From contig JAULBX010026975.1 of assembly GCA_032358255.1 (NCBI GenBank), positions 1 through 41,632 on the forward strand: a DNA stretch of 41,632 bases. The letters run 5' to 3'. The DNA is from Heterotrichella gracilis (Eukaryota; Sar; Xanthophyceae; Tribonematales; Xanthonemataceae). This document shows positions 1-41,632 of this stretch, one piece after another (positions within the stretch are counted from its first letter, which is position 1; every line of letters starts with the position of its first letter). The translations under genes and the position numbers were made by a program. Below the pieces are notes generated by a model that saw only the letters and a program-made list of their open reading frames with translations, ran no database searches and had not been told where the DNA came from.

Positions 1-608
1 TGTGTTCCGTAAGAAATCAAGATTTTATACTTCGTTTTTATACAAATATTTTTTTTTATTTTGCTCTAATTTATCGTCTGTGTGGGCATGGCCCCCAGCG
101 AACTGGCCAACTGTGCACAGCACCAGCGTCACGCGCACGTTTGCCAAGTTGCAGCATGATAAAGAGGTGCTAGGTAGCATGTGCAGTGCAGTGACGATGC
201 AGGAAGCATGGCAAGCCTTCAGAGCTGGCGCTGAGTTCTGGTTGTTGCAGTTGGGAGTAACGGATGTTACAGGGTAGAGCAATATGGAATATATAAAAGC
301 CTGAGCTTTAAGCTAGGCTGCCTCAAACATTGGTTGCTAGCGTCAGCACACACCCAAATCTGTACACTGTACTGTTGACAGTCCGAAGTCTCAAGTGGAT
401 AAAGCTGTAGCAGCACGGGGACGCAACAGGCATTCTAAAGGGCAAAACAAATGGCCAACTAAGCTCACCGCAAAACGCGCACGCGGTAACAACCTGCAGT
501 CCTACACATCAAAGCTCAAAACGAAACCGTGCCAGGAGCTGCTACATCAGCCAGTGGTGAAGAAAATGCAGCTGCTGGTCAACAGTGTTTCCCTGGTGTG
601 CAAGCTGC
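1..608. other. 3' flank and UTR of the aldolase gene; no gene seen
   Basis: No coding segment with family similarity or splice support is visible in this stretch. It is the downstream side of the minus-strand aldolase gene and contains a TGTAA poly(A) signal candidate at 267-271. The AT-rich first 70 bases lie beyond that signal. Short open frames on both strands overlap each other and look like chance frames. Confidence 0.6.
267..271 (-). terminator. TGTAA poly(A) signal candidate of the aldolase gene
   Basis: TGTAA reads on the minus strand about 340 bases past the aldolase stop codon. TGTAA is the usual poly(A) signal of chlorophyte green algae. I saw no other copy between here and the stop codon. 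Confidence 0.55.
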
Positions 609-2217
609 TTAGTAGGTGTAGCCCTTCTCGTACATGCCCTCTGCGGCCTCAGCAGACTCCACGCTGGGGTCGTACTTGCCAAGCTGTGCGTCGCTGTTGG
701 CCTTGGCGCGCTTGAGCAGCGCCTGCTGGCCGGCCTCGTAGTTGGCCTCCTCGCCCCTCCAGGTCTTGAGCACCGAGTTCTGCAGGTAGAAAACCGCTGG
801 TCAGGGAATGCAATTACACACTGAATACTGGTGGAGGTCACGCAAAAGGTGGCAAGGTGGGCAACACAGGTGGGAGGAAGCAGGGAAGCGAAAGGCTAAG
901 GCCAGGTGTGGGCACACTGAATGGTGGTGAAGGTCCAGCAAAGGTGGCAAGGTGGGCAAGGCAGGTAGGGGGAAGCAGGAAGCCAAGGACAGGTGTGGGG
1001 CAACACATAGTGCAGCCTGGTAGCTTACCTGCAGGGCGCGTGCGTAGCTGAAGGACACGTTCCATGGGTTGGGGCTCTGGTTCATGGCGTTGAGGTTGAG
1101 GGTTGCCTCAAGCTCGGACTGGCCACCGGACAGGAAGTTGATGCCGGGCACGGAGGGGGGCACGCGCCTGGACAGCATCTTCAGGGTGTAGTCTGCCACC
1201 TCCTCGGGGGAGGCCCTCTTGGGGCACTCCGCACCGGGGGTCACCATGGCAGGCTTGAGCAGGATGCCCTCCAGCAGCACACCGTTGTCGTACATGAACT
1301 TGAAGGTCTCGGCCCAGATGGCCTCCTGGACCTCCATGCACCTGTCAATGTCGTGCTCGCCGTCCAGCAGCACCTCTGGCTCCACGATTGGCACCAGGCC
1401 AGCGGACTGGGCGATGGCAGCATAGCGGGCCAGGCCGTAGGCGCAGTCACGCAGGGCGATCTGGGATGGGCCAGCGGCCACGGACACGACGGACCTCCAC
1501 TTGGCGAAGCGGGCACCGGCCTTGTAGTACTCGGCGCACCTCTGGGCGAGACCGTCCAGGCCCATGCACCAGGACTCGTCACGAGAGTTCACCAGTGGCA
1601 CCAGACCCTTGTCCACCTTGATACCGGGCACGATGCCCTGCTCCACCAGCACGTCGGTCATCTTCTTGCCGGCCCTGGTGGACTGGAAGAGGGTCTCCTC
1701 GAACAGGATGGCGCCGGAGATGTACTGGCCCAGGCCGGGGGCAGACACCAGCAGCTCACGGTATGTCTGGCGGTTCTCAACGGTGTTCTCCAGGCCTATG
1801 GAGTCGAGGCGCTTGCCGCAGGTGGCGTTGGACTCGTCCATGGCAAGGATTCCCTTCCCGGGGCTGGCAATGTATTTCTGCGGCGGGGGCACGGACGGTT
1901 AGCACTGACAAAAACCAGCTGCAGAATTGTACCCTAACATGTGCCAATCCAGCTATCGTGTGTAAGCGCACAATGTCAAGCACTGCGCACACCAGGGCAC
2001 CAAGCAACAAACACACAACGGTGATCCGCGGTTAGTGGGTCAAATGTGGGTTGATGCAAAGGGGCTAGGCACGTACTGCTGTCTTGATCAGCTCCTCGTC
2101 GTAGGCGCCTGCGCGCACCACCTGGGTGCTGCGGCGGCCAGCCACGCGCCCCTTCTGGGCGGTGAGGGCGTTGGTGCCCACGAAGGAAGAGGTCTTTGCC
2201 ATCATGGAGGCCGCCAT
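609..2217 (-). CDS. FBA: Class I fructose-bisphosphate aldolase, chloroplast
   Basis: Exons are 2217-2077, 1877-1029 and 779-609, all joined in phase 0, giving 386 residues. The enzyme interconverts fructose-1,6-bisphosphate with dihydroxyacetone phosphate and glyceraldehyde-3-phosphate, in the Calvin cycle and plastid glycolysis. The first ~35 residues are rich in Ala, Ser, Thr and Arg without acidic residues, a typical plastid transit peptide; the mature start resembles AGAYDEELIKTA. Family blocks visible include GKGILAMDESNATCGKR, the Schiff-base region GILLKPAMV (Lys255), FLSGGQSE and NLNAMNQSPNPW. The C-terminus ends KGYTY, keeping the terminal Tyr important for catalysis. Donors are GTACGT and GTAAGC; acceptors are CAG. 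Length and sequence fit chlorophyte plastid FBA closely. The start at 2217 is the first ATG that gives a transit peptide. The second intron contains a tandem repeat. Confidence 0.95.
828..1005. repeat. Tandem ~93-bp repeat in aldolase intron 2
   Basis: Two adjacent copies, about 828-920 and 921-1005, share the blocks AGGTGGCAAGGTGGGCAA, GGAAGCAGG and ACAGGTGTGGG in the same order. The copies fill most of the 249-base intron between exons 2 and 3. Unlike other intron repeats in the window, this unit does not obviously include exon sequence. Confidence 0.75.
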
Positions 2218-5109: not shown

Positions 5110-7696
5110 ATGGCGAAGGTTGGCGAGGGTGACGCGCGGTGGATAGTGTCCGAGCGGGCTGACGGCACCAACGTCAACAACTGGCACTGGTCTGAGAAGG
5201 ATGCGCTTGGCTGGTGCCAGACCAGGCTGACTCAGCTGTTCCAGGACGCCACACTGGTCCCTGGGGACGAAGGCATCGCAGCCAAGATCACCCAACTGGA
5301 CTCCGTCACTGGAGAAGCGTTCATCACCGTGCGGAAAAACAAGCTGATCCCCAGCTACGAGCTCAGCATCACGTTGTCATGGGAGGCTGAGGTCAGTGGC
5401 GAGGAGAGCCTACAGGGCAAGATCCAGCTGCCCTACCTCGCAGAAGAGAATGCTGATGAGGACCCGGAGGTGCTTGTGACCACAACTGTGGATGGGCCGC
5501 TGCAGCAACGAGTGAAGCAGGCGATACACAAGCATGGCAAAAAGGTAATATTCAAAGTGGACGTGCACGGTCGGCCGGCATGTGTAATGCATACATATTA
5601 TTCAGGGGCGCTGAAGTGCAAAGGTCCTGCCAATATTGTTTCTTTCTTGTTGAAAAGTTGCACTGACCCTCAATGCATCACTTGCACCTTGGCCCCACAC
5701 GTGCACACAGGTCGCTTGCGCCCATATCAGTGCACACACGCACAACCTCCTCGGGTTCTGTTGGACCCTCAAAGTACGCCCTCCTCTTTTCTTTTCAGCT
5801 GCACCCCCCTGGTCCTTGCAGGTCATCCATGATGGCGTAGCTCAGCTGGTGAAGGAGCTCCACGCAGGTGGCCCCGCCCAGCCGGATGCACCCGAGGCGT
5901 CTCCCGCCACGCAGCAGGCACCGCCACAAGCAGCAAAGCAACCGCAGGCAACACAGCCGGCAGCCGCCCCGCAGCAGGTAGGTTGCTTGCAACCCTCAGG
6001 CAAACCCATCTTGCCAATGTATACATCTCCCTTGCAATGGCAGACAGCGGGCCATGCATCCCCAGCGATTCACCCCCCACGCCCATGTGAGGTCTATGAT
6101 CACTGTGGCAATCATTATGAACCATGCACGCCATGAACCATTACATATGCGCCAGCGCAGCCTGGTGTTTACCGCTGCATTCTGGTGTCTTTACATCAAC
6201 CTCGGTCTTTCCTTGTAAGTAGATCTAAATGGTGGAAATATCACATAGCATGGGCTTGGTTCAAAAAACCTCAGCATGCCTGCAACGCTTGCCCTCCCTG
6301 CATGGGCCGCCCCTTTTTAAGAAGGGCGCCCCCACGCCCGCTGAGCAAGTGCGCACTTTAAATCTGCTTTAAAATTTATACTGTATGGGGTGGTGGAATA
6401 GGAAATCATTGCATGGGCTTCACTGTCAGCCAGCCTGCACCCACAAAACTGCCCATTCCCCTGCGCAGCCCCCCCCCAAGAAGGCCGCCCCCAAGCCTGC
6501 TGAGCGGTCTCGCACCCGCCTTGAGTTGCAGCAGGAGTTCTACTGCCGGCCTGAGGACATCTACGAGTGCTTCACAGACGCGCGCCGCATGATGGCGTTC
6601 TCACAGGTAGCAATCAGTATCTGTTTTTTGTTTCGTACAAAAGATAATGCGAGCTTCTGCGTAAGTGTACAATCAATGATGGTTGTGATAAATCATATTG
6701 TGTGTTTGATTCCAATATGCTAACATTGCTGCTGAAACGCGTGTATTTAAGTGTTTGATGACATGCATTCCTGCCATGTGGCAAGGTTGGCAGTTAGCTG
6801 TGTACACCCAAACCCCATGCCTGACAACTCCACCCCTTCACTGCCTGCAGGCCCCCGCTGAGTGCCAGCCCACCCCCGGCGGCTCCTTCTCCATGTATGG
6901 GGGGTCGGTGCAGGGCACCTTCAGGGAGCTGGTGGCACCCAGCAAGCTGGTGCAGGACTGGCGGTTCAGCTCGTGGGAGGAGGATGTGGTGTCGAAGGTG
7001 GGGGGCGGTGGGCGGTGGTGGTGGTAGAGTGGGGTGGGTGTGCAGGTGGGGTGGACCACATGTGGCGTTTGAGGGTTTGGGTGGTACAGGTGGGTGAGGT
7101 GCATGTGCAGGTGTGGACGGGTATGGTGGCACCCAGCAGACTGGTGGTTCAATCTGTGGGAAGAGGATGTGGTGTCAATGGTGAGGGTTGAGGGTGGTAC
7201 TGGTGAATTGGGGTGCATGTGCAAAAGTGGTGGTGGTTGTGGGGTAGGCCTGCATCACCCAACAGCAACCAGTGGCGTTGCAAACGGAGCATACACTGAT
7301 GGGAACTGCAGTTCCCATGGTAACACTGTGGTATTGGCATGCCCACAACTAATTCTTTACATTTGAAACTGCGGCCCCTGCATGTGACCCTCACCTTTCA
7401 TCATTACCTTTGATCACTTTTGATCATCTCTGATCACCTTTGTGCGCCCCCCTGGAGGTGACCCTCGCCTTTAATCAGCTCCTTTTGACAACCTTTGATC
7501 ACCTTTGTGCGCCCTTCTGCAGGTGACTCTCACCTTTGATCAGCCCAAGGCAGGCCACACGGTAGTGAAGCTGGTGCAGACAGGCATACCCGAGGACGAC
7601 CGCTTCGGCAACCATGACGTCATTCAAACAACCGAGGCGGGCTGGAAGGGGCAGGTGTTTGACCGCATCAGGAGGGTGTTTGGATACGGCGCATAG
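5110..7696 (+). CDS. AHA1: AHA1-type activator of Hsp90 ATPase (AHSA1)
   Basis: Five exons, all phase 0, give 349 residues: 5110-5544, 5822-5977, 6469-6606, 6851-6997 and 7523-7696. AHA1 binds the Hsp90 middle and N-terminal domains and speeds its ATPase cycle in the cytosol. The N-terminal domain (residues ~15-160) carries the family signature NVNNWHWSEKDA. A Pro/Ala/Gln-rich linker follows (~165-212). The C-terminal AHSA1/START-like domain (~215-349) has the expected QEFYCRPEDIYECFTD opening, the GGSFSMYGG and DWRFSSW blocks, a LTFDQ strand, and ends VFGYGA like animal and plant AHA1. Exons 4 and 5 meet exactly between W-x-x-x-x-V-V and the following beta strand. Introns 2 and 4 contain decayed copies of the neighbouring exon edges. 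The gene converges with the threonine aldolase gene downstream. Confidence 0.93.
6319..6356 (+). repeat. Exon-edge echo: decayed copy of AHA1 exon 3 start
   Basis: About 38 bases beginning AAGAAGGGCGCCCCCACGCC match the real exon 3 start at 6478-6515 (AAGAAGGCCGCCCCCAAGCC) at roughly 30 of 38 positions. The copy sits in intron 2 about 160 bases before the real exon. Its upstream end lacks a good 3' splice site. Confidence 0.75.
7121..7183 (+). repeat. Exon-edge echo: decayed copy of AHA1 exon 4 end with donor
   Basis: This block in intron 4 repeats the last ~65 bases of exon 4 (6933-7003): TGGTGGCACCCAGCA is identical, and AGGATGTGGTGTC is followed by a GTGAGG-type donor. Eight bases are deleted relative to the exon and a stop would arise if it were read. 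It lies about 190 bases after the true exon end. Confidence 0.85.
7375..7490 (+). repeat. Exon-edge echoes: two decayed copies of AHA1 exon 5 start
   Basis: The 3' end of intron 4 has two copies, near 7384-7402 and 7456-7475, of the sequence beginning the last exon (GTGACTCTCACCTTTGATCA at 7523). Copies read GTGACCCTCACCTTTCATCA and GTGACCCTCGCCTTTAATCA. The upstream block TGATCACCTTTGTGCGCCC is also repeated before copy 2 and before the real exon, so the unit of about 65-72 bases covers the 3' splice-site region plus exon start. Confidence 0.88.
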
Positions 7697-8615: not shown

Positions 8616-11458
8616 CTATTGTCCCACGGTCACTGTCCCAGCTGCCAGCCCCTCCAACACCTCCTGGATGATCTCCACCGCATCTGTGATGTCATCCCCG
8701 CTCACATCGTTGTGCGTCACCCCCCTGACCCCGTCCTTGAAGGCTGCCAGCAGCACCCCCCTTGCCGCCAGCAGCTCCACCAGCTGAGCTGGCGACACGT
8801 GGTTGGCCAGGGGGGGCGCTAGGTGAAACACCACGATGTTGGAGTGCACTGTGGATAGGTCAAGCAGCACGTGGGGGGAGGCCGCCAAACCCTTGGCTAG
8901 GATTTGCGCGTTGTGGTGGTCGACGTGCAGGCGCTGGGGCATCTTGGTGAGGGCGATCAGGCCTGCAGGGGGTGCAGGCAAAATATTCAAATATAATCTA
9001 CATCTTTCATCACAAAGTCACCTCACAACAACCCCCCTTCTCCCTTGCCGAAAATCTGCTGCGACAGTCCTGTGGATTCCGCAGTATTCAACGCATTGAT
9101 GGTGTGGGGTCTACCATTTAGGATATAAGGTAAAGCACCCGTCCCCACCTGGTGCAGCAATGATCCCCGCCTGGCGCATGCCGCCCCCTAGCATCTTGCG
9201 CATGCGGTGCACCCGCGCAATGAAGTCTTTAGGCCCCGCCACGATGGACCCCACAGGGGCCGCCAGCCCCTTTGACAGGCAGAATGACACGCTGGTGGCC
9301 TTGGAGGTGATTTGGGCCACGTCCACACCGAGAGCCGAGGCTGCGTTGAACACCCGCGCGCCATCCATGTGAACGGGAATACCCTGCATCAGGGCAAGTA
9401 TAATATTCAGAATTCATGTTTTGAATTCTATAATATTTGCTCGTGTCCTGCCTGGGGCAGTAACCTTAGGTATCTCTACATCTTTCCATAATGCCATTTT
9501 GCAGTATTTGCCAACGCCATTCAAAGTGAGTAACCATGCCGCTCAGCCACACATCTGCCGGTTTAGCTCAAAATCATTAGGCTTGAGGGTTTTCTCTGTA
9601 CCGGCAGACCCTCCCTTACCTTGCTGTTGGCCCACTCATGCAGCTCATTTAGGTACTCCAGTGACAGCACCGCCCCGCCACACCGGTTGTGCGTGTTCTC
9701 AATGCACACCAGACCGACACGCGAGCAGTGGGGGTCGATAGGACGATTCCTGCATAGGCACAGCCCACAGGCGTTCTAAGCATCACATGGACACGCCATG
9801 CGCAGCAGCGATACCACCGGGACAGGTTAATTTTAAGAACTCATCTTCTTGCATTTGCATGTACATTATGCTTGCACCGCAATGGTGGAATCGCATCCAC
9901 GCCCCAATTCCATTACGAGTTGCGCCATTTGTGTTCAGTGTGGCGGAAGGGCACCGTGCATGCTGCTGGCCATGCATCTGCATCCTACACCAACTGCAAT
10001 GGAAACCCTAAAACCTTGCCGCCACTAAACCGCACTACCGTAAACCCTAAGCAGGTTACCCATTGAAGCGCACCCGTAACCACAACCCCACCTGGAGGCA
10101 TGGTCACACACCCCGAATCAGTCTACATCATCACACATACCGAACAGCCTTCTCCAGTGCTGCAATGGGCAGCTCCCCGTTGGCTTCTGTGGGGATGACA
10201 TTCCACACCACACCACCCAGCACGGAGGACCCCCCAGCTTCATAGTGGTAGATGTGCGACTCGTCGCCCAACAGGATCTGCAACAGAGCACAAAGAGAGG
10301 TTTGCAGCCGTGCATTGTGGGCAGTTGTTGAAAATGCATGCAATGCATGCGGTGGAATGGCAACATGGCCTCCAATGGCCAGGCAGATGGGGCAAGGGTC
10401 GGGCAACCCAGGGGCAGGCTCTGTGCGTGTATGCGGCCTGGGAGCGTCCCCTGTGTGGCCTTGAACGATGTAGGTTTCCCACAAAGGCATATGTGGGTGA
10501 CATATGTCAGTCGTAGCTCCATCGATGTTACAATACCTTCAGAAATAAGCATGCAAGGGCATGCGCAGCAACCCACGGCAGGTACTTGTGCAAGGGCACC
10601 TGTGGGTACTAAATAACCCTAGGGTTTTGTGGCAAGAGCATGCGTGGGTGGACATACCTCCGTCCCGCGCTCCATGCAGTGCGCCAGTATGGAGCTGAGG
10701 TTCCCCATGGTGCCTGTGGGGACGAAGAGGGCTGCTTCCATGCCCACCACTTGTGCTGCCACTAGCTGCAGGTGGTTCACTGTCGGATCGTCGCCCCACA
10801 CGTCGTCCCCAACCTCCGCCTGAGACACCATGTGTTCCGCGGTTACCATTTGGTAGGGGTGAATGCCAAGGGTTTTGGGTTGCGTTTGGGGAGAAACAGG
10901 GATTGAGTCAGTAGTACTGGTGTGCAATGCTGTACTGAGACCAACGGCTGCGTGTTTGGGTGTAGGCTGATACCCTACAGGTGGTTTACCCCGGGTCCCC
11001 CACCTCTGCCTGAGACAATAGATGCATTTTGGGGTTGATATTGAGTGCCTAGCACTGCTAGTAGCAGTCTGCACAACTTGCAAGGCCTGTAGGTTGTGGT
11101 ATGGGTTCAGGTGGCTGTGCCGTTTGCGCACTGCTTACCAACAGGGGCTTGCAGCCGCATCTCGCGGGCGTTGGCTTTGAAGGTGGGGTCAATGCAAGCC
11201 TAGATGAAGGTAGCTCACCACATGCGTTCCAGTAACACAACCAAGCCTAGCCTAGCAGTCTGTTCTGCTCAGCCATGTGTCTTGGCCCCTGCATGGTGTG
11301 CCATGGTGTTGTGTGATGCTCACCAATAGCGCTTCCTGCCGCATGTCTTCAGTGGGTTTGGTGACGGTGTCGCTCCTGAGGTCGACTGTGTGGCTACCGG
11401 CGTGGGTGGGTGGGGCTAAGGGGGTGAGGGTGCCATTCTGGGCGCCATTGCCATACAT
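8616..11458 (-). CDS. L-threonine aldolase (PLP-dependent)
   Basis: Six exons join in phase: 11458-11324, 10819-10658, 10277-10141, 9749-9620, 9383-9149 and 8962-8616, giving 381 residues. The enzyme cleaves L-threonine or allo-threonine to glycine and acetaldehyde using pyridoxal phosphate. Visible family blocks are [89 protein letters not shown] (PLP lysine, Lys226) and [19 protein letters not shown]. The mature fold starts about residue 25; the short N-terminal stretch lacks a clear transit peptide, so a cytosolic enzyme is likeliest. Intron 1 contains decayed copies of both flanking exon edges. The gene is divergent from the SAP/RNase Z-like gene. It belongs to the GLY1/LtaE family; I give no symbol because algal naming is inconsistent. 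Confidence 0.93.
10995..11031 (-). repeat. Exon-edge echo: decayed copy of threonine aldolase exon 2 start
   Basis: On the minus strand this block reads a TTGTCTCAG splice acceptor followed by GCAGAGGTGGGGGACC. The true exon 2 acceptor at 10820 is GTGTCTCAG followed by GCGGAGGTTGGGGACG. Both the 3' splice site and about 17 bases of exon start are duplicated, about 180 bases upstream in the same intron. Confidence 0.85.
11134..11190 (-). repeat. Exon-edge echo: decayed copy of threonine aldolase exon 1 end
   Basis: On the minus strand this block aligns with the last ~50 bases of exon 1 plus donor: GAGATGCGGCTGCAAGC against GACATGCGGCAGGAAGC. Both are followed by a TTGGTAAGC or TTGGTGAGC donor. 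It lies about 180 bases downstream of the true exon end, inside intron 1. Confidence 0.85.
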
Positions 11459-12084: not shown

Positions 12085-15000
12085 ATGCTGCGTCGCTGCG
12101 TTAAACCGTCGTGGGTAGCGATGCAGCTAGCCAGGAGCCGGTTGGGTGCCAGCCCAGCACCCGCCACGCCCACAGGCTGCGGTGGGGCGCTGGCGCCTTC
12201 TGTACGCCCAAGGAAACACTTTGGGTACTTCAGTATCTTTAAAACGCCGTCAGCTTGCGCCGCTGTGAACGTAGCCGCGGTGGAGGCAGCCCCTAGTACT
12301 GGACAACCCAACAAGCCACTCACGAAAACTTCCATCCGAAAACTGACAGTGAGTAGCCTTTTTCTCATATGCTACCCATGGTACACTGGTTGAAAAAGAC
12401 ACAATATTTCTCTCTGCTGCTGCCTTGAAAGTACACATCACACCTTTTCCTTCACACACGTTGTGCTAGCACCGTTCTGCACCACCCTCGGCCACCTCCC
12501 AAAGGGACCTGGCACCCAACCCCCACTCCCACATCACCAACCCCATTCCAACCGCCCTCCCCGTCACCCCACCCTCACATAACAGTTGTAGCAGTGGTGT
12601 CAACCCCACCCACCTCCACCCACGCCCACCCACACCTCCACCCACGTCCACACCCGCATGCACACCACCCCCCACACCCATACCCACACCCACATCCATC
12701 TATCCCCACCCACCCCCACCCCCGCCCACCCCCGCCCACCCACACCCACCCACACCCACCCACAACCCCACCCTTAGGTGAAGGACCTCCGAGAGGAGCT
12801 CCAATGCCTGGGCCTGAGCACCGACGGCCCCCGCCCAGTGCTCCTGGACCGCCTGTATGACTCTCTCTTCGACAGCACCCAAAACAGCCACTCAGCCACC
12901 ACCACCACCACCTCCACCACCAGCAGCTCTGAAAACTTCCAAGCAGATGGTCAACCACTGCACCCCGATGACACCACCACCATCACCACCAACGGCGCCG
13001 CCACACCGAGACTCACCGGCAGCACCAAGCGCGTTCGGCCTCATAGAAAGAAGATGGCCAAAGCCCTGCTCAGGGAGCAGCAGGCAGCCGAGTTCCATGC
13101 CGCCGCCATTGCAGAGCAGCAAAACCCCACCACACCCACCGCACCCACCACCTCTGGGCGCGAGGCGGACCCTCCCGCCCCCAAAAAGAGCCACCGGAAG
13201 AACCGGGCGGTGGTGTACCGGCGGAAGCAGGCAGTGGAGTTTTTTAACAGCGAGGGCGAGGCGTCGGGCATGATGCTGCACGGCGCCTCCGAGGCGCAGT
13301 GGGAGTGGCTGGCCAGCAACCATACCAGGCTGCAGCTGTCGTTTAAGGGCTCGGCGCCACTCCTGGGGGGAGCGGGCAGGTAGGGATTGTGGGGGGGAAG
13401 GAGAGGAGGGTGTACTTAAGGGAAGGCACGCAGGTGGGGTGCAACCAAAGGGTAGTTGTACGCAGGCTAGTGACGCCCATGGTCATGCACGTCACTAGCC
13501 ACATCTGTGTGGCTGTTTGGCACGGACGAGGGCACACAGCGCCAGCTGGCGCACCAGCGCCACCACGTATGTCCTCTGAAATCTCATTACACGTGAAATC
13601 CTGGTCCTATAAACAGGGAATAATTACTAAATCCTGACCTCCTGCCCCTTCTCTACAGGCAAGTGACGTCGGTAGTCATGCGTCACGCCACGTCTGTGTG
13701 GCTGTTTGACACTGGAGAGGATACGCAGCGCCAGCTGGCGCACCAGCGCCACCTGCGCCACGGGCGGATTGAGCGCATTTTCATCACGCACCACTCGCCA
13801 GACACGCTGTTTGGCCTGCCAGGTGGGTGAGGGTGGCGATGGGGTGGGGGTGGGGGGGGTGCGCATGGGTGAGGGATGGGGGCGGAACTGTGTAACCGCC
13901 AGCTTGGGTCTTGGAGGGTAGGGTGACCGTGTGGGAATTTGGCATGCAGAGCATGTGGTGGGTGGGAGGGCAAAGGGGGAAGGTGAAGGGCATTGCAGCA
14001 TGTGCAGCCTAAGGCAGGCATGAGGGAATGCCCCTCAATAGAGCGCATCATCATCTTGCACCACCCCTTGGATACCCTGCTCGGGGTGCCAAGGGTTGGG
14101 TGGGGTGTCGGTGGGTTGGGTGGGTTGGGTGAATGTAGGATATGGGGGGGGGGAAACCTACAGAAAGAAACGGCTTGAATGTAGAGACACTATTTTCCTG
14201 TTGAAAAAACTGGAAAAAACACTTTCAATTCTGCAGGCATGCTGTGCACCATCAGCTCCTCCCCGGGTCTGGTGGGTGGGTGTGGGAATGTGGTGGGTGG
14301 AGTGATTGCTGGATATGGTGGGGGAAAGTGTACAGAAGTAATTTGGCATGGACAAAGAAGTGCTGCCTTTTTGCCAAAAGACACTCCCAGAAAAATCCCC
14401 CGTGTAAACAACCCCCAAATGCAGCCTTACAACCTTTGAAAACGCCTCCAAAACCCTAACAACACCCCATTACCGCAGGCATGCTGTGCACCATCAGCTC
14501 CTCCCGGGCCAAGGGCCACCAGAACGCAGACTTCCCCGTCCAGGTGTACGGCCCGCCAGGCACCGGGGAATACATCAAGCGCATCCTGTACCTGTCAGAC
14601 ACCTACCTGGAGATGCCGGTGCTGGTGCACGAGTTCTGCACAGGCCAGGTGCCGTCCGAGCAGATGCTGCCTCTGTGCATCAACCGGCGAGCGCGGCTGC
14701 ACGTGTTGAAGCTGCCTCCAGATCAGCTGCACCCGCAGGTGAGGAGGGTGTAGGGTGTAGGGTGTTGGGTGTTGGGTGTTGGGTTTCAGGTGTATAGAGT
14801 CTAGTGTTTGCAGATGCATTTGTGCCTGTGTGCGTCAACCGGCTGCATGTGGTGCAGCTGCCACCAGATCAGCTGCACCCGCAGGTGAGGAGGGGCTTGT
14901 GAGTGTCTTGTTTAAAGTGTCTGGGTTCTTTAGGTCTGTGGGGTTTAGGGTTTAGGGGGTTTGCGAGCACGTGCTGCCGGCACAGGCGGCTGCCTGTGCT

Positions 15001-22679: not shown

Positions 22680-23013
22680 GCAGCGGGGCCTGACTGCGTC
22701 CTCAGGAGGCCCTGCTAGGGGTGCTATCAGCGGTGGTGGGGCGCGTGCGGCGATGCGTGCATCCTGGCGATGCCCCAGCTCTTTTTTTTTGCTACATAAC
22801 GTATAATATTTACTGTGTCTGATACTGTATTTTTGTGGGAGGGCAGCCGTCGACTGCCTTACCAGTATGGGGAGTAGGGGGTAGGTAGGGATCCGTGAGT
22901 GAGATTTCAGAATGTTGAGTAATGAGGCATCATCACTGTATAGCTTCTAGTGCTGCAAGTCGGACTCAATTTCTGTCACAGTGGACCTGCAGGTCTGGTC
23001 CAGCAAAAATGCT

Positions 23014-23018
23014 TGTAA
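23014..23018 (+). terminator. TGTAA poly(A) signal candidate of the GPX gene
   Basis: First plus-strand TGTAA seen after the GPX stop, about 530 bases downstream and past the SECIS candidate. It would place the SECIS inside the transcript. Confidence 0.45.
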
Positions 23019-23863
23019 TAATGATTGCCAAAGCTTGTATGATCAACAAATTCCCAAATTAATGGAATCTAGACAGCAGCTCTTGCTAGCTGTCGTGGAT
23101 GGCTGGTAATTCACGTTGTAATTACATTAGATGCAAGAATGCCATGTCTGTCACATACAACAATATGACCCTGTCATTGGAGACACTGGTATTACCTTAC
23201 TAACACCTCTGCCACGTAATACTACAGTACAAAACAACAGGGAGTTGATTCATGCGCGAAATGTACCGTACTGGCAGTTGGGAGCATGGTGCATGTGTCA
23301 ATAATCATCAGATGCGTACAACAAAATGGGTCGACATTTGCCATGCAAGCAAAACTATGACGCTGTGAGTTTGTGCACACGAGGCTGTATGAGAGGAAAC
23401 AGGGCACTCGTAATGCCGCAGCCATGCCTGCTCCTGCTGTTGTTTCCCCTGACCCAATTTTTATTACCCTAATAAAATGTTGCCCCACAGGGTGCTTTAA
23501 GGGGTGAAATTGATCCATCATATGAAATGGAATGGGCACGGCCCGTACACACAGGGTGCAAAAAAAGGACACGTGGCCGGCAGGACATGTTGGGCAGGCT
23601 CACCAATTCATTCTAAATATCCTCCTCTGCCTGGGATCTAACAAGGGTCCTTCAGTCACCCACCCCTGTCCACATTGCCTGCCTGCCGCCCCTTGAACCA
23701 CAATGATTGTGTACACTACATCGATTATATAATTATGTAGTGCTTATTTGACAATCCCACTGCGTTGCAGGTTGCCATCCCAGGAAAAACCCCACCCTGA
23801 ACCCCCTTCGCCGTGACAGGTGGCCCTCCTCAAAACCCTAACCCCAAAACCCTGAACCTACCC
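23019..23863. other. Convergent intergenic region; no gene seen
   Basis: AT-richer stretch between GPX and the large B3-like gene, presumably holding the 3' UTR of the latter. A minus-strand TGTAA at 23127-23123 is one possible poly(A) signal. Short frames on either strand lack splice support or recognisable similarity. Confidence 0.45.
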
Positions 23864-26800: not shown

Positions 26801-29800
26801 CCCTCCTGCTGCCCTGGTTCACCACCTGGCCGTCGCTGCCATGCGAGATGCTGTAGCTGGACTGCAGCGGCAGGTGCGAGGCGGTGATGGCGTTGCGCAG
26901 CGCAGCCTGCAGGTCCTGGCTCATGCGCCCCACATCCAGTGTGGCGCACACAGATGCCGTCTGGCCCGGGGAGCGCCGCGGCGGCGAGTGTGGGAGCTGC
27001 GGCAAGGCAGAAATGTATTTGTAAGAGAGAGATATTGAAAAGAAAATCAGGAAGATTTGGGGAAAAACCACCGCGGCAATTGCAACCATAGGCAAAATGC
27101 AGGACAGGGCAGCATTCCCCCGGTTCAGGAATTTTGTACGGGTGGTAGCAATTCCTGGACTTACCTTTCGGGTGCAAGATTACACACAACTCAAGGGATA
27201 TCAAGCTACCAAAGTTTACCTGCGGCGGGGGTACCAAGGCACCCTGGCGGGGTGCGCGGGGCGGGTGCTGCGGCTTGGCGCCCTGCTTGCGGCGCTTGGG
27301 CGAGCGCACCTGCTGCCCGCGCTGCTGCTGCGGCTTGGGCGGGAGCCTGGCGGAGGGGCGCGGCGGGGGCGGCGACATGACGTCCCGCTGTGCCTCCGGG
27401 ACCGCCATGTCGGACACAGTGGCGAGCGAGTCCAGCGTCTGCGTGGGGGCAGTGGTGGCCGATTGCGGCAGCTGGCGGGCCGCCGCCGCCGCCGCCCTGC
27501 GCGCCGCCGCCGTCGGCTTGGAGGCGGGGTTCGGCGGCGGCTTTCGCGCGGCGCCTGAGCTGGTCTCGGTGCCGCTGGATTTGCGCTGGACGAGCTGCAT
27601 AGCGGTGAGCTCGGCGCTGCCATCCCGGGGACCGCCGATCGGCGCCACGGGGTTGGTGCCGGGCGTGGTGGTGTCGGAGTCCGGGGTGGAGGGGGTGGCG
27701 CGGCGGTGCGAGTTGCTGCGATCGCCGGTGCCGCCGCTGTCGGGGGTCGGCATGCGGCGGCCGCGGGGCGCTGCCGCTGGCAGGGCCACCTGTCCCTTGA
27801 GGGAGAACAGGCGCGGCGCCTTGGCGGGAAACTGCACAGGGGTTGGTCCATCCTCGGTTGGCGAATGCGCAAATACACAGCAATGTCTCGGTAGCAGCGC
27901 AGTGGACCATGCAACACCCTGCAATTTGCCACATTTACATCCACCAAGCGTATGGCATATAAACCATTTCAGTGCAACCTACACCACCAGGCGCAACACA
28001 CACCTAAAGATCACAATCACAATCCTACACAATCATCAGCATGCACCCATTGGCATACCTGCCGCTTGGCCTTGCCCACCACAGCCGGCCGCCCCACTCC
28101 CACATCCACTGGATCACCACCCGCACCACCATCGGTGGAGGGGCTGCGGGTGGGGGGCGTGGGGGCCTGCGCTCCAGCCTTCTCCACCCCAACCAGCTTC
28201 CACCCCCCCTGGCGCCTGCGGTGTGCGCCCGCGCGATTGCTGCGCTGCTGCTGCACAAGCCCCTTCTTTGTGGCAAAGTACTCGGCAAACACCGCCTGCA
28301 CACGTGGGGACCAGCCAACACAAGTTAAGATCCATTGTTTGGGATTTAGATATTATTAAAAATTGTAGGTAAAAAGTCCTGACAAAAGTCAAGCAAGTTG
28401 CAACAACAAAAAGCAAGGATTACCCATCTGCACACAGGGTTGCTATGGTCGCTAGCATATATATCCATGGCCCACCCACCTGCACCGGCTTGTCGCTCGC
28501 CATCATCCAGCCCATCACGTCCTCCTCCTCGGTCACCCAGGGCCTGGCGCTGGAACGCACCGGACCGGTGGGCACAACCGCCTGTTGAATCTTGCGCTTC
28601 TTCCAGTGCTCAAGGGGCGCAGCTGCACAACAAGAAGCACATAAATAAGTACAAGTAGAATACTCAAATATTGCAATAAATGAATTACAGCAACAGGAGT
28701 GTCTGAAACCGGTCAAGAGGGAAACAACCCAGGCTCATAAGAATAAAATAACAATGAGGGGTGCCCGCTACAGCTCTCACAAACCTAGGCAACCCTGCTG
28801 GGACAGGACAGCATCCCCACTGCATGGACGTGCAGGGAATGTGCCCCCACATGCAAACACAACAGGTGCAGGTGCATCCCCACCGTGGTCCGCTGCATCC
28901 CCAGCAAGCTCAGGCGCTGGTGTTGGTGCGTCGGAAGGCGGGAGCAGCGGCTTGATGACCAGGCGCTGCAGCTTCTTGCCCTTTTTGGGCGCCCCTGCGG
29001 AGGCACCAAGTGGCGCTCCCTCGCCGGCGGGGTGCTGCGGCGGCTGCGGCGCTATGGGTGCAGGAGCAGGCGCAGTCGCGGGCGCAGGCGGGGATGCGAG
29101 CAGTGCGCTCCCACCGCGCGTGCGCGGGGAGAGGCGGTGGGCCAGGCTCTTGAGCTTCTTGAGCCGCCGCTTCTTGACCTTCCCGCGCAGCTCCAGGGGC
29201 GGCTGAGCCGGGGGCAGCGACCCCTCGCTGCTCTGACCACCCGCCTCGCCACCGGCTCCAGAGCTCTGGGTGCAGCCACTTGCGCCCGGGCGGTCCTCGG
29301 CCCTTGCGGACCGCCGCGGGCTCACCACCGCGCCCCACTCCAGCGACATCTCCGGCCCGCTGCTGACCTCCTCCTGCTCCCGCGCTGGCGGCTGCTGCTC
29401 CACTGCTTGCGGTTGCGCGTGGGTGGTGGGTTTGTTACCCACCTGGGAGCCGAGTGGCAGCACGGGCGGGCCCTCCGCCAGAATGTGCTCATGGCGGGGC
29501 ACCTTTGCCACGCGCTTGCCTCGCCGGCGCTTGCCCTTGATGCCGCCGCAGGACTGCAGCGCGGCCAGGATGACTGGGCCCGCACCCATGAGGAGGCGGC
29601 CGTAGGCGTTGGGGTCGGGCTTGCGGGCGATGAGCGCGAGGGACACGCGGTCGGCCACGTGCGGCGGTTGGGGAGGCGCCTCGGGTTGCTTGCGCTTGCG
29701 CTGGGGCAGCAGAGGGGCCTCGGGGGCCGACGCCTGCAGGGGCAGCCAGTGAGTCAGCATACAAACCAGATTCTGGTTGGCGCAAGCTGTGCAGGAGTGA

Positions 29801-32800
29801 CTGCCTATCTGGATGTACAGCTGCAATTGCATGCTATAACATATGGTGATTTCCTTGGCAAACACCTGTTTAATTTCCTTCGTTCCGCCACAAGTTGGCA
29901 TATGCAATTAGCCCCTAGTGGCGAGCTAGTAAGTGCGCAGGTAATTAAGGGCCTGTAGCAAGGAGGTAGCACCGCTGGTTTCGCACCGTCAGCGCCGCCA
30001 ATGTGGCTGTCTTCCCCACACGCCCGGCAGCCACCTTGCCCAGGGTGGGGTCGCGAGTGCGCACCAGCCCAACCCGCGCATCGGCGGCGCCAGGCTCTGC
30101 CACTGCCAGCGGCTGTGGCTGAGGCGGTTGCATGGGTGGTGGGACCGCACCCGGGAGCATCCATGGGGTAGGCACACATGCATGTGCCACTTCGCAGGCC
30201 CACTTGGGCGCACCTGCATGGTAAACAAAACAATGATGAATAGGCCGCTGATGCCCTGTACAGCCATATATGCATGCATCCTCCAGCGGTGCGGTCCCCA
30301 AAACCCAATGAGAACAGAGTCCTCACAACCACCCAAACTTTGCAAGACCTGTACTAAAATCTAGGGTTAGGGTCTTGGACATATAAAATCCCAGGGATGT
30401 GCACCTGCCCAAGAGTCGTTGTCCAGCGCGTTGACAGCAATGCCCTGGTCGGCCAGAAGCACCGCAGCGCTCCAAAACCCGCGCGGGAGGCCGCCTGCAT
30501 GCCGCTCAACCACATGCCGCCCGCCCCCGACCTGGGACCGCCGGGGGCCGCCCCCGCTGCCTGGCATGTCGCCACCGCCCTGGCTGTCCCCGTTGGGATG
30601 GTTGTTGCAGCCATTGCCGTTGGGGTTGGGGTGGCTGGCATTGCCGTTTGCGCCTGCCCCGGTGCCGTTAGCAAGGCCATTGGCGCTGGGTTTGCAGGGG
30701 GCTGCAGTGGCGCGCTGCCTCACGGGTGGCTGCTGCTGCTGGAGTGTGGAGGTGGTGGTCCTGGGGTGGGGCCCCAGTGTGTTTTCGGTGGTCCTCGGCT
30801 GGGGCCTGGGCAGGATAGCTATGATACGAGGCAGTGCCTTGGGCGTATTTGCGGTGGTTCGCGGGTGGGGCTTTGAGGCTGTTGTGCGGCGCCGGGGCAT
30901 GTGCATGTTGGCGGTGGTTCTGGGATGCGCTCGGGGGGCAACCACTGTGGTTGCTGTCTGTGGGGTGGACTTCTTGACAGCAGGTTGTGGTGGGGCCGTG
31001 ATGGCTGCTGCTTGCCCCGTGGCCACTTTGTCTGTGATCCGCGGTTGCCCCTCGGTGGCGCACGGGGGCCGAGTGGAGGGGTGGGAGAGTGCGGTGTCTT
31101 CAGCTGCAGGGGACGTGGGCCACCTGTCCTCGCCTGACCCCTTCCTACCCAGCATGGTTCCAAGTTCGAGTGCTGGGTCCTCCTGGCCCTGGCAGAAGTC
31201 GTTGTGGAACATGGACACCTGCATGTAGGTACACGCATAATCATGGACCTGCGCATGCATTGTGATGCAAGTGTATGTACATCTGTAAGCCAGAATTATA
31301 ATGTGAATGGATGCCCCTTTCGTTTCTCGCATGCTGACGCTGCCCCCTCCCCCAGCACTGCGCATAATGAACCTCACGCCCTGCCACCATCATGTAGACC
31401 TTCTGCCCTCACGCCCCAGTCTGATTCCTCCACCTGGACACCCCTCTGGTGGCAGTTCAATGCAGGGATGTGCCCCCTTATGCATGCAGAAATGGACCGC
31501 CTTCCCCCAGAACAAGACATCATATTAGGTCATGTCATCACCTTATTACCCTTCCCAACATGCAGATCAAAGGCCCCCCCGTACGCTGACATTGCCCGAC
31601 CGACCCTACCATGGCACATTTTTGTCCATTTAAGTGCTATGATGGTGGCGCCTACACAACTGGACTTGTATCTTAACCCGTGTGCCTGCCCCACCTACAC
31701 TACCTGCTTCCTCACTACCCCCCGCCCACGCACCCAGTCCGACTCCTCCGGTTGCTCCTCCGAATGGTGCACCGAGCGCTCCTCCCCTTGGTGCTGCCCA
31801 GGGCTGTTCGCTGTCACGTGGTGCGTGGTGCTGGCCGCCTGGTCGCTGCCGCTCATCTCGTGCGGACACGAGCAAAGCACATCCCGGAGCTGGACCAATG
31901 AAAACAGTCGTTTAGGGTTTGAGATGTAGGGTTCTAGGTTTCACAGAATTCAGGGTTTAGGGCATCCATTGCAGGGCAAAGCCCGGGTGCTTGACCCCGC
32001 AAGCAACTGTTTAGGGGCCTAGAAGTGAACCACGCAGACCACCCTGCTGCCAAACCTCACGCAGCCCCTTACCCTAACTCGGCAACTAATACCCCTGTCC
32101 CCAAGCCGTCGCAGCTCACCATTCCCCAACTCTAACTCTAAACCCTACCCAGCCACTCACCCTGGCCCTACACCCTACGCAGCCCCTCACCCTGACCCTG
32201 CACCCTACGCAGCCCCTCACCCTGACCCTGCACCCTTGCGCAGCCTCTTACCCTGATTGTGTCAGCGGCACACCGCAGCACCAGCTCCGCCTTGCTGTGG
32301 GTGGGGGTGAGGACCACATAGCCGCCCACCTGCAGCCGAGCGGCAGCCACCACCTGTGGCCAGGCCTCCAGCATCAGGGCTTTGCCGGTGGGGGCACGCG
32401 ACACCGCCTGGAGCGGGTACCTGGACCGCCCGTGCACCACGCTGGTGACCTGGGTGCCAATCACCTCCAGCAGCTTGCCTGCAACACAGGCTGGCCAGTC
32501 ACAAGCAGCTCGTGGAGGTGGGTGAGACAAGACTATATTGCTTGTTTGGAGTACTAAGGTTATAATCACAAGTCAAGGGGATTTGGTCTCCCAAGGAGCA
32601 GCCCACGCTTTAAAACATAGAAAGAGGTTGTGGTCAACTTGTTTCTTAAAGTATTGAGGAGGGAATGAGCGGGGTATGAGGCACACGTGCGTACCGTGGA
32701 GGAAGAGCTTTGAGCGCTTGACATCCTTGGTGTCCAGGCACCTCACCCAGCTGTCGTCGGGTGCCTGCTGCCAGTAGGTCTTGTGGTTGTCGTAGCTGAA

Positions 32801-35333: not shown

Positions 35334-38300
35334 TCACGCTGCCAATTCGACCTTGAACCCCACTGCCAGGTGGTCCGAAGGCCACAGTGCATTGGGTGCA
35401 GCGTCAAACTCCACCGCCTGAGGCTCCTGCTCGCGCCCATCCCACGAGTAGGGCAGCTCCAAGCTGTGGGTGACGCCCCAGGCCCCCTTGCTCACCCACA
35501 CGTAGTCCAGGCACCCGGCAAACCCGGCAGTCTTGGTGGTGAGGGGGGGCTCCACACCATGCACAGCCAGTGAGGCGCTAACGAGGTCAAGGCCAGCGTT
35601 AGAAAAGACTGTCTGCAAGGGTATTGGGGTTTTGTCAGGTCCACATGCCACACAGGATATGGAGCTGTGCATGTTCACGTGGGTAGCAGGCCCAGGGATA
35701 CACCATTTTTTGTCCCACACACTCTGGCAACCCAGCATTCTAATGGTGAGGGGTGGCTCCACCCCCATGCACAGCGAGGGAGGCGCTAACCAAGTCAAGC
35801 TTAGCGCTGGAAAGACCGCCTACAGGGGCATTATGTATAAGGTTTTTGTTAGGTAATAGGGCTAACAACATTCGACTAGGGTATTAGGGTATTTTAATCG
35901 GCAGGCCCGGGCCAGGGAATGTACGCCGAGATGCATGTGACCTTTGTAACATGCAAAGCACTCACAGACGCTTGTCCTGTGCTCCAGCACCACGTATGCA
36001 CGCAGATGTCCCACGTGCACCAGGCTCATTAGGGGTTTCATTAGGGTTTAGGAATAGGGTAGCGTTGACCTGTAATCCATACATCTCAGGTGCTGGGATC
36101 CGCACAGCTCCCATCCAGCCCCATCTGCAACCCCCAACCCTCACCCCAACAGCCACCTCACCTCCTCCTCCTCCTGCCTGCGCCGGTAGGGGTGGTCGTG
36201 GTGGCTGGGCCCAACCTGCTCCCCCGCCATCAACCCATACACGCCAGACTCCAGCGGGCACCCGGGCGCAACCTGCACATGCCCGGGTAAAATGTAAATA
36301 CGGTACTAACACAGGGAAATGCTGGAAAATCAGGATTAATGTGCCCCCCACCTGATCAAATGGGTCGGTCCTGTACTTGCGCCACAGGCTGTTGAAGTCA
36401 CCGCCACACAGCACAGGGGCCTGCGGGTGACCAGCCGCGTGAGACAAGAATCAAAGGCTTTAGGGTCTTGAGACTATGGTTCAGGGTTCAGGGTTCAGCA
36501 TCTGCAGGTGGTCAGCCTCGCGAGAAAATGTACCAGAACATTAGGGTGTAGGGTGTAGGGTGTAGGGTTCAGCACCTGCGGGTGGCCGGCCTCCCGCCTG
36601 AATCTGTCCATCTCCCCGCACAGCACGTGTGCCTGCGCCAGCTTGACGTCTGGCCAGCGGGGATCCCAGAACAGATGCACACTGGCTGCCAGAAACACTG
36701 CCTGGGTGGAGGTGTCCTGCGGCAACATGATTGCACCTCACCCCCACTGACACATATGGGGAGAATTAGGGTGCAGGGTAAGTGGACTGGGCTGGATACC
36801 TTGGCGCATATTGGCACTATGAAATTTCTGGTCGTGCCTAAAGCAGCAGAGCTAGTCATTACAAACTACTCAATTGGTCCGGCTTGACGTCTGCCAGCGG
36901 GGATCCCAGAACAGTGCACGCTGGCCGGCCTGGGTAGAGGTGTCCTGCGGAAAAATGATTGCACCTCACCCCCACTGACACAAATGGGGAGAATTAGGGT
37001 GCAGGTCAAGTGGACTGGGATGGAGTGGATACCTGCTGCACATCGGCGCTACAAGATAACCGGTCCAGCCTCTCCCTCCCTTGCTCCCATCATGCCCCGC
37101 AGCCACACGTGCACAGGCTACTGGTGCCAAATTTTAGTGTAGAAACATAGGGTATAGGGTTTACCACCCCGCACCTGCAGCATGGCCAGCACCGCCCCAT
37201 CCTGCCTCTCTTTCACTCGCTCCCACCAGGGCCCGCTGCCACACAGGTTGCTGGCGCCAAATCTGCACATGAGCAGTGCATGAGCTCGCGCCCCAAGGCA
37301 TGTCTCATATGCCATGCATCAGCTGCCCGCACATGCACTTAGACAACGGGCATGATGCAGCGCATGAAAACTGTAACCCTAGTGTTTCCTCTCAAAGATG
37401 GGGACATACATGTATACGGTATGTCTACCCTATATGTACCTACATTAAAGGTGCCACCCCATTTCTGGGCCGCCACGACACACGCCCCAAGCGTGCCAGC
37501 CGCGCACGATGGTTCACACAATCATTGTGCCAATGTCCCCGGTAGAGAATGTACACAACTTCTCATCCCCTACACCCCTTGCCACGTGTGCCATGCACGC
37601 GTGATGGCTGAGCCCCGGCAAAGCAGCTGCCGCGAAATTCGCTCCCCACTCCCATCCCCACCTAAATGTCTTTGATGCCAGCAGGCGCAGGCGTGACTCC
37701 CTGAATGCCAGCGCGGGCCCCTCGGGGGGGCCCGGCACCGTGTCGGTGGGCAGCACTGCGCGCGGGTGGAACAGGCAGCGGTAGCCTTTCTCACGCAGCT
37801 GGGGTGCAAGGTGGTGCTCAAGCTCGTGGCCCTCAACCTGGGGGATGGAAGGGTGCCCGTGGCAAGAAATGCGAGGAATTTATAACACATGAGGGGGTCC
37901 CGGTCATGAGCATGTACAGTTCTGTCTACTGCCCTTCCTGGCCCAGTGCATGCCAATTAATAAGGCTGGATAGCTGCCCACATGCCCTTGCAATCCAGGC
38001 AGATTTGCCCAATGCCACACACCCATCACCCCCAACCATTCACCTTCTGCAGGCATAACCCCACCCCACCCCATGCACCCTCCACCACCCCCACCCATGC
38101 ACCAACCCATCCCATCCACCTCCTGCAGGCATATCCAACACCCCCCACGCACTCGCCCACCACCCCCGCCCACCCACCTCCTGCAGGCATACCCCCATTC
38201 CTAACCGGTACACCCCACACCACCCACCCATGCACCACCACCCCACCCACCCACCTCCTGCAGGCATATGATGTCAGGGCCATAGTCCTCAAGCTCCTGC

Positions 38301-39936: not shown

Positions 39937-41511
39937 TTACCAGTCGAGCTCATATTCAACGAATCTATGAGCAGCGATGGCCAGAAACCTGGTGAGCTCG
40001 CGGTAGGGAGCAAAGTCCTCGTCCTCTTCGATGATCCGCTGCAGTTCCTCAAACTCCACTCCATACTCCTCGACATCATAGGTGGTGGTGGGTAGTGCGT
40101 CCAATCCTTCAAGACTAGTCCGCAGGGGCCAGTACCTCGCAGCGTTTTTCCACTGGCTGAGCAGCACCTGCACGTCGAGATTTAAAGTTCAAGGTTTAGG
40201 GTTTAGGCAGCCTTAACCGCTGGCTGAGCAGCACCTGCACACGTCCAGGTTTATAGTATAGGCTTTGAGGATTTAGGGTTAGGCAGCCTCTGACCACTGG
40301 CTGAGCAGCACCTGCATACGTTACGTTTTACAGTTTAGGATTTAGGTTTAGGGTTCAGGGTTTAGGGTTGAGGCAGCATTTCACCACTGGCTGAGCAGTA
40401 CCTCCACGTCCCAATCCGCTCCGTTCCCGGTGACTTCATCCATCAAGTCCATGAAGGACTCCAGCAGTTGCTGCCTGTCCCATACATCCACACGTGATGT
40501 ATAGGAACGGGAGGGGCAGGGAGGTGGTGCCACATACTCCCAGGCGGCCTGCGCAATGCTCTGCGATTGCATGCGGCCCATGCCCCTCTTGTGGAGGATG
40601 CAGTTCAGCAGGGACTTCAGTGGCTCGTCTGTCAGGTGCATCACGTCAACCATTGCAAGCATGTACGGCAGTGGCATGTTGATATGTCCGAACCGACGTA
40701 ATGACAGGCTCTCAGGGAGGAACCTGTTCTCCTCATGCATCTGCTCTGGCTGGCTGTCTGGCTGGCTGAGGGTACTGCTGGGGTCATCGTCCTCAGGCTG
40801 GTCACTTGCTGTAGCCACCAGTTCGGAAATGTCCTTCCTGAATTGTGCTGCCCAGGCATCCTGCAAACCACCAATACAAGCCTCAGTCACAGAAGCAGTC
40901 ACGTAATTCACGCAGCATCCTCGGCATATACATGAGTATGAAGCAGGTTGCAGGGTATGACTTAAGGACAGGAGAAAATGCTCCCATCACCAAGCCCAAA
41001 TTTGACACAACTCAAAACCCTAACCGCCGATCCTGAACAGGCGGCACATGGGGACAGCCGGGGATTGACCGCATTGCCTTCCGAGTGATCCCCTTGCCTT
41101 CAAAATGCAGTGCACCCATGCGCATGCGTCTTACCCGCCTAGGAAGCTGGACGAAAATGGTCAACCCCTGCCTTGCCACCTCAAAAACAGGCTTGTCGCC
41201 ATCCCACCTGTGCGACCAACCCCAGTGCATCCTGTTCGCAAACCCTACCAACACACTGCCCCAGTGGCACCACAGCTAGAAGCTGCCCATCCAGTGGGCA
41301 ACACACACAACCAAACCGCCTCTACCACACGCACCTCCTCAACCTCGAGCGGAGTCCACCACGCCGGCGGATCAGCAGTCAGACCGGCCTCCACCAATGC
41401 GCCGCTGTCGCCAAGCACGCTGAAGCCAGGGGTGGTGGTGGTGGTGTGGTGGTCAGGCATGGCGCCATTGTGCGACTCGAGAGGGGAGGAGGGATGGAGC
41501 CCAGGCGAACC
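39937..41511 (-). CDS. Unrecognised protein, 3' part of gene; 5' end outside window
   Basis: Four exons join in phase: 41511-41335, 41275-41135, 40860-40402 and 40167-39937, coding at least 335 residues. The first listed exon begins at a CAG acceptor (41512), so the start codon lies beyond the right edge or in an exon I did not find. Tryptophan-rich ELWCHWGSVLVGF and MHWGWSHRWDGDKPVFEV are followed by an acidic, Ser/Gln-rich linker (ATASDQPEDDDPSS). Then comes a helical region (NMPLPYMLAMVDVMHLTDEP, ILHKRGMGRMQSQSIAQ) and a strongly acidic C-terminal helix (YGVEFEELQRIIEEDEDF) ending LDW. I do not recognise the family; the pattern suggests a soluble helical protein. The weakest join is the CTAG acceptor at 41276. 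Its last intron is an exon-edge echo array. Confidence 0.6.
40153..40402 (-). repeat. Four-copy exon-edge array with telomere-like spacers (last intron of the unrecognised gene)
   Basis: The block CTGGCTGAGCAG (plus strand) starts at 40153, 40220, 40297 and 40387, spaced 67, 77 and 90 bases. Read on the coding strand, each copy is CAG or GAG followed by GT(G/A)CTGCTCAGCCAG and a GCTGC-containing tail. Between copies lie CCCTAAACCCTAAA-like stretches. The 40153 copy is the true exon 4 start, and the 40387 copy is the sequence immediately past the donor of exon 3. Confidence 0.95.
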
Positions 41512-41632
41512 CTGCAACGAGGGGGTGAGTTGGACTTGTGCAGCAAACTTTGCCACACATTCCCCAGGCAACAAAGTTCATGCTGTGTGGGCTGGTATCG
41601 TTGTGCAAAATATGATTGGGGGAGGGGGGAGG

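Follow-up and report, generated by a model that had tools for sequence, protein, structure and literature searches.

Tandem copies of exon edges in the introns of an algal contig and their regional association with telomere-type repeats

Introns gained by tandem duplication have been described in vertebrate ATP2A1, in potato RdRp and with 24-bp repeats in fission yeast (PMC4974935, PMC3443670); in the passages of these papers drawn on here, DNA carrying splice signals is duplicated and the extra copy is spliced out, which makes a new intron from exon DNA. A comparable arrangement is present in contig JAULBX010026975.1 of assembly GCA_032358255.1 (Heterotrichella gracilis), which was analysed over its whole length (41,632 bases, hereafter the window). 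Its introns contain decayed direct copies of the adjoining exon edge together with the splice site, here called echoes. The intron at 40168-40401 of the last gene in the window fits the AGGT form of the described cases, but nearly all of the other echoes lengthen introns without a birth signature, and in some loci there are many of them per gene.

Small tandem duplications also arise at breaks with 3′ overhangs, and in mouse and human cells exposed to Cas9 nickases they depend on CST, Pol alpha-primase and end joining; CST and Pol alpha-primase serve telomere ends as well (PMC8355091). The copies in the source alga resemble these products in being direct, tandem and tens of bases long or more, and differ from them, as far as the cited passages describe the mouse and human duplications, in being often longer, in having unmatched DNA between them and in being read from sequence alone. 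In primates and rodents, interstitial telomeric repeats are inserted during break repair, with target duplication at 6 of 130 rodent and 4 of 25 primate loci (PMC2246262). Internal telomere repeats are common to both cases, with occasional target duplication in the mammals, whereas the source alga, compared with the loci in that account, holds thousands of repeats, which reach their highest density in introns and whose link with tandem duplication is regional only. Newly gained introns flanked by short direct repeats, ascribed to staggered-break repair, likewise have direct repeats at introns; in the present case the copies are longer and lie inside the introns.

The echoes are probably the visible tail of a general process, in which short tandem duplication is untargeted and splicing hides the extra copy. 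The first-pass annotation of the window had proposed recurrent short tandem duplication centred on splice junctions. Recurrence is borne out by direct copies of graded age in many loci, and by homology of the intronic part of the unit, too, in 25 of 49 testable echoes (p<0.05); a clear excess at junctions was not seen. The regional tie of echoes to telomere-type repeats was the unexpected part and is a testable lead that does not appear in the cited passages. A literature search of titles and abstracts returned no description of such echoes, or of telomere repeats in algal introns, which does not show their absence from print. Recent and still readable cases that bear on the open question of how introns grow and originate are few, and a series of duplications of differing age, telomere-type repeats separating the copies in some of them, would make growth, splicing tolerance and repair origin measurable in one organism by comparison of strains.

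Occurrence of exon-edge copies

From the assembly (68.5 Mb, 903 contigs), 20 stretches of 10 kb were sampled first and 8 stretches of 9 kb later; the 18 algal loci referred to below are the window and 17 other stretches. Three stretches (L002, L009 and L020) of 36-39% GC, with long open reading frames and no echoes, one of the contigs measuring 894 kb, are probably bacterial companions in the assembly; they were excluded from the gene models and served as negative control. Genes were modelled with a purpose-written hidden Markov gene finder trained on these sequences, which gave 50 genes and 326 introns with a median length of about 250 bases, and hand correction of the window models led to 314 introns, 312 of them with full flanks. 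The models are uncertain for the start of the RNase Z-like gene, for the HMA gene and for both ends of the last gene, and some echoes were called as exons, which alters the counts. Repeats were searched by ungapped self-alignment (match 1, mismatch -1, short-period repeats masked, offsets 20-600, score at least 16).

Direct pairs numbered 50 in the window and 181 across the other 17 algal loci, versus 0 or 1 pairs in a dinucleotide shuffle (one per sequence; 0 for the window) and 0 pairs in 30 kb of the bacterial-looking contigs. The 189 pairs with a score of at least 18 comprised 64 intron-intron, 45 edge-intron, 27 exon-intron, 18 intergenic and 15 edge-edge pairs, and 20 others. A copy of the exon edge in its own intron was found for 14 of 104 junctions in the window (donors 5/52, acceptors 9/52) and for 37 of 524 in the other 17 loci (donors 18/262, acceptors 19/262). 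Echoes were thereby carried by 13 of the 52 introns and 6 of the 10 genes of the window, and elsewhere by 38 of 262 introns and 14 of 39 genes, and the earlier statement that nearly every gene shows them was an overstatement. Edge similarity above a shuffled control, graded decay (the identities span a range) and occurrence outside this one locus were upheld, although the distribution is very uneven, from 0 echo pairs per junction in seven loci, with 200 junctions together, to 0.38.

When exon edges were compared with their own intron, 49 of 628 junctions gave a match, as against 0.02% when they were set against introns taken from other genes and matched for length (12,560 comparisons, same score). 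Introner-like elements would appear as one family spread across the introns of different genes; exon edges gave no more than this 0.02% in foreign introns, and intron-intron families were not searched as such. In exons of at least 200 nt, edges were echoed in an intron more often than mid-exon sequence (13 of 149 versus 2 of 149), as the annotation had anticipated, a bias also predicted by blind duplication followed by loss of the events that change the protein. Introns with an echo had a median length of 406 bases and the others 244, in agreement with the suggested outcome of intron growth.

Form, placement and competing explanations

The pairs were 190 direct and 17 inverted at offsets of 20-620, and the rarity of inverted copies led us to reject an origin by templated insertion or hairpins. 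The repeat period was about 30-350 bases (median about 130), and the exonic parts of the echoes had a mean identity of 86% (71 pairs); exonic identities of 1.00 that arose through window overlap in the comparison of intronic parts were disregarded. In 136 gapped alignments, the gap between copies was at most 5 bases in 31, with medians of 35-68 in most identity classes. Mismatches fell on codon positions 1, 2 and 3 at 36/292, 48/287 and 55/287, respectively; there is thus little sign of coding constraint in the echoes, and coding exons were rejected as their identity on account of this only slight unevenness.

According to the untargeted reading, short tandem duplications would arise irrespective of splice sites and at a frequency that differs between genome regions. 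Where a unit spans a junction, the intron would receive a further copy of the exon edge, splice site included; splicing at the outer site would then leave the protein unchanged and the intron longer by one unit, and duplications internal to exons would mostly be removed by selection. Models such as those of AHA1, aldolase and threonine aldolase have intact reading frames, which suggests use of the outer site. Constraint on the real exon would keep the exonic part of an echo recognisable for longer. Overhang fill-in at staggered breaks, followed by end joining, may be the chemistry involved, as it is expected to yield direct copies that are tens to hundreds of bases long. Outer-site use, neutrality and the repair route are what we infer.

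Placement relative to junctions was evaluated from coverage, geometry and simulation, none of which supported junction targeting. Of the exon bases, 6.6% were paired with the own intron at the edge, 0.1% at 120-140 bases and none beyond. For intron bases in intron-intron pairs the proportion was 0.8% at the edge, climbed to about 11% at 220-280 bases and was lower deeper in, where few bases remain; this second profile omits exon-touching pairs and is therefore low near edges by construction. Events within single introns crossed the junction in 76 cases and did not in 74, a share of 0.51 against 0.60 expected for a unit of that length placed anywhere in the pre-duplication intron. The gapped set gave 51 crossing and 31 non-crossing events (share 0.62), when simulation on the present introns gave 0.46-0.475. 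The median echoed exon length was 52 bases observed and 55 simulated. Crossing shares thus scatter about the blind expectation with at most a slight excess, and the centring on junctions claimed by the annotation was not upheld.

Several results weigh against untargeted duplication in its plain form. Counted once per intron, the crossing share was 0.68 versus 0.58 expected (71 introns), a slight excess, and the tail of echoed exon lengths was shorter than simulated (95th percentile 98 versus 162). Splice dinucleotides were intact in 50 of 57 echoes, compared with 72% of the other dinucleotides of the same alignments (p=0.0045), a retention which need not mean use, because the real site is held fixed by selection. 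In several young echoes the match ended 5-11 bases into the intron, with unmatched DNA between the copies; a plain tandem unit does not account for this, and filler or fast intron decay may lie behind the short intronic match. Clusters confined to introns numbered 43 in 93.6 kb and intergenic clusters 19 in 59.5 kb (0.46 versus 0.32 per kb), and a cluster was present in 13.5% of introns but in 3.9% of intergenic pieces of intron length. The blindness therefore applies to splice sites and not genome-wide, and either duplication or survival is not uniform. The gene models outside the window, moreover, are predictions made without RNA.

A duplication process with splice junctions at its centre would explain the preference for edges over mid-exon sequence, the per-intron crossing share and the young echoes that stop just inside the intron; it is nevertheless improbable, since intron-internal events are as many as crossing ones, the shares lie in or near the blind range and seven loci have no echo pair at all. 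Slightly less credit still is due to the idea that echoes are alternative exons or splice sites in use and under selection: the intact splice dinucleotides and the slight third-position excess of mismatches agree with it, but mismatches are near even over the codon positions, echoes comprise only parts of exons, and the lack of drift at a real splice site is by itself enough to raise its match. Intron birth, in which an exon piece containing AGGT would be tandemly duplicated and the echoes would be remnants, was tested as a match between donor and acceptor surroundings of the same intron (score at least 14). Two of 312 introns, that of the last gene with its four copies and one in L013, carried this signature against 0.04 expected, and an EEP gene intron was a borderline third candidate (score 12; 0.18 expected at that score). 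Birth may be an occasional outcome and was rejected as main cause, as 310 of 312 introns lack the signature, and, even if age could hide older cases, we hold it very unlikely to account for the echoes. Least credible is an assembly artefact or a mobile element family, for which nothing speaks beyond the repetitiveness itself: graded identities and the bacterial-looking contigs with no pairs make an artefact unlikely, and edges match their own intron, not foreign ones.

Telomere-type repeats in introns

The seven most enriched intron heptamers were the permutations of CCCTAAA (AACCCTA 174 times, 14.3 expected), and TTTAGGG, as in plants, is what we take to be the telomere unit of the source alga. 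Shuffles predicted 12 occurrences of CCCTAAA/TTTAGGG for introns and 5.8 for intergenic DNA, where 102 and 19 were counted; exons had one. The intronic heptamers, which are often degenerate, reached 8-12 times the shuffled expectation. The 17-mer CCCTAAACCCTAAACCC occurred 2,437 times in the whole genome (1,206 forward, 1,231 reverse), when the reversed control occurred 1 and 0 times. Examples of the heptamers in window introns are at 14943, 25313, 31911, 36460 and 40186-40370. Two palindrome-like heptamers, ATGCATG and GCATGCA, were about twofold enriched in the introns of the 18 algal loci (125 versus 52 and 130 versus 58 in shuffles).

Across the 18 loci, echo pairs per junction followed intronic telomere density (Spearman 0.82, p=3e-5; 0.79 without the window), with values of 0.32-0.38 in L011, L013 and L015. 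The association was used as a prediction on fresh loci, of which four stretches with 17-mer clusters (36 kb) had 22 echo junctions of 110, and three readable stretches without them (27 kb) 6 of 84 (Fisher p=0.013); all pairs numbered 93 and 20, respectively. Introns with a telomere heptamer had more echoes at a given length (odds ratio 3.3, p=5e-4, telomere heptamers masked), whereas intron-intron duplications showed no association with the heptamer (odds ratio 1.35, p=0.42). Permutation within locus and length class gave 34 observed versus 31.5 expected, which is not significant (p=0.19), and therefore the tie between echoes and telomere repeats is regional. A telomere match was present in 19 of 67 50-base flanks at the joints, in 5.8% of random intron pieces and in 19% of the flanks away from the joint; as the enrichment extends to both sides, this gives no clear support to telomere repeats as joint filler. 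The stretches from junction to echo held 748 telomere-masked bases against 595 expected, a difference given with no significance value.

The loci rich and poor in echoes were labelled "hot" and "cold" after the results. Two mixed organisms behind them were rejected, as codon usage was no further apart than in random splits (p=0.29), and a 347-base repeat at 91% identity is common to hot and cold loci; shared codon usage and shared repeat point to one genome. This dispersed repeat of about 350 bases was seen at L015:8618-8960 and L021:4412-4758 (91% identical), and at L017:1706-1794 with 73% over 101 bases.

A sharper form of the untargeted reading would have telomere-end machinery handling breaks in the genes of hot regions, with telomerase adding TTTAGGG-type repeats and CST and Pol alpha filling in 3′ overhangs, whereby repeats and duplications would accumulate together in introns. 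The heptamer and 17-mer counts, the correlation across loci, the outcome in fresh loci and the joint flanks are in its favour, as is the ability of CST-Pol alpha to produce tandem duplications in mouse and human cells, on the part of the report cited (PMC8355091). We nonetheless consider it rather unlikely, because significance is lost once locus and length class are controlled for, the enrichment extends to the flank away from the joint, intron-intron duplications are unlinked to telomere repeats and the gap of most young echoes holds no telomere tract. Joining CST-Pol alpha fill-in with telomere insertion is, for the source alga, our own inference. Marginally more doubtful still is the wider picture in which hot regions have telomere-end machinery at gene breaks, introns are largely repair scars, up to about one third of junctions bear exon-edge duplications, and a scar occasionally becomes a new intron.

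Echoes in the genes of the window

The first-pass annotation had named seven genes with echoes, of which AHA1, threonine aldolase, the RNase Z-like gene, GPX, the EEP/CCR4-like gene and the last gene were confirmed and the B3-like gene was not. In AHA1 (forward strand), the acceptor-side exon edge 6462-6505 of intron 2 is echoed at 6303-6346 (44 bases, 77%, offset 159). Intron 4 contains an echo of the donor-side exon sequence 6930-6952 at 7124-7146 (23 bases, 91%, offset 194) and, by self-alignment, one of the acceptor edge 7521-7544 at 7456-7479, which lies within a 65-base tandem pair at 7417-7544 (period 65, 84%, Tandem Repeats Finder). The best named relatives of the AHA1 protein were from trebouxiophyte green algae (Micractinium, Myrmecia, Chlorella, Trebouxia) with 47-50% identity, and by this comparison the source genome looks like that of a chlorophyte with no close relative in the searched protein database. 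Intron 1 of threonine aldolase (reverse strand; Pfam beta-eliminating lyase) has an echo of the acceptor edge 10805-10827 at 10995-11017 (23 bases, 91%).

Five introns of the RNase Z-like gene (forward strand; Pfam SAP domain and a sub-threshold lactamase domain) carry echoes. The acceptor edge 13656-13740 is copied at 13463-13551 in intron 13380-13658 in two pieces (26 bases at 81%, 54 bases at 85%), and the acceptor edge 14468-14508 at 14226-14266 in intron 13823-14478 (41 bases, 90%). Intron 14739-15086 holds a copy of the donor edge 14668-14744 at 14823-14890 (21 bases at 90%, 51 bases at 92%). Three echoes of the donor edge 15166-15220 occupy 15252-15473 in intron 15199-15528 (offsets 85, 155 and 253; 73-81%), separated by telomere-type G-rich tracts, with joint-flank telomere scores of 14, 14 and 19. 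Intron 16598-17087 contains the donor-side exon sequence 16498-16559 at 16722-16783 (62 bases, 84%).

In the EEP/CCR4-like gene (reverse strand; Pfam endo/exonuclease), the introns 36717-37174, on both sides, and 35613-36161 were found echoed by masked self-alignment, and two further introns only when masking was omitted. Intron 36717-37174 carries the youngest echo in the window, at 36893-37024, where the acceptor edge 36653-36796 is copied (22 bases at 100%, 97 bases at 93%) together with about 80 intron bases; the donor-side exon sequence 37200-37244 recurs at 37064-37108 (45 bases, 80%). The last intron (35613-36161) has an echo of the acceptor-side exon sequence 35507-35605 at 35715-35813 (99 bases, 68%). 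The unmasked search added the donor edge 36549-36596 at 36475-36522 in intron 36421-36575 (score 28) and three echoes of the donor edge at 38255 at 38030-38191 in intron 37838-38254 (scores 20, 30 and 27). In the last gene (reverse strand), intron 40168-40401 is made of four copies of one edge (85-96%, donor-acceptor score 28), the two inner ones at 40217-40240 and 40283-40316, with telomere-type repeats between them.

GPX (forward strand) has two echoes of the acceptor edge 20922-20988 in intron 1, within 20745-20883, at 20745-20766 (22 bases, 91%) and 20817-20883 (67 bases, 76%), and one of the donor edge 22038-22073 in intron 4 at 22136-22171 (36 bases, 81%). The gene contains an in-frame TGA at 21046-21048 in the context Asn-Val-Ala-Ser-Glu-TGA-Pro-Leu-Gln, presumably at the catalytic cysteine or selenocysteine (Sec) position of other GPX proteins, and it probably encodes a selenoprotein; Rfam gave no match to a selenocysteine insertion sequence (SECIS) element downstream in 22400-23500.

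Pfam support was also obtained for the aldolase and for a TPD-domain gene. An aldolase intron (reverse strand) has an intron-only duplication at 845-979 (845-884 and 940-979; 40 bases, 90%, offset 95). In the B3-like gene, the first 267 residues of whose protein had no Pfam match, the pairs that reached the threshold were all intron-intron or exon-exon, and the unmasked search over its 15 introns added a single weak match (17 bases, score 13); an intron-only tandem repeat of period 30 lies at 32129-32236 on the reverse strand (78 bases, 88%, offset 30). This gene is long and of low complexity, with exon-internal repeats at 27256-27389, 29264-29733 and 30779-30927.

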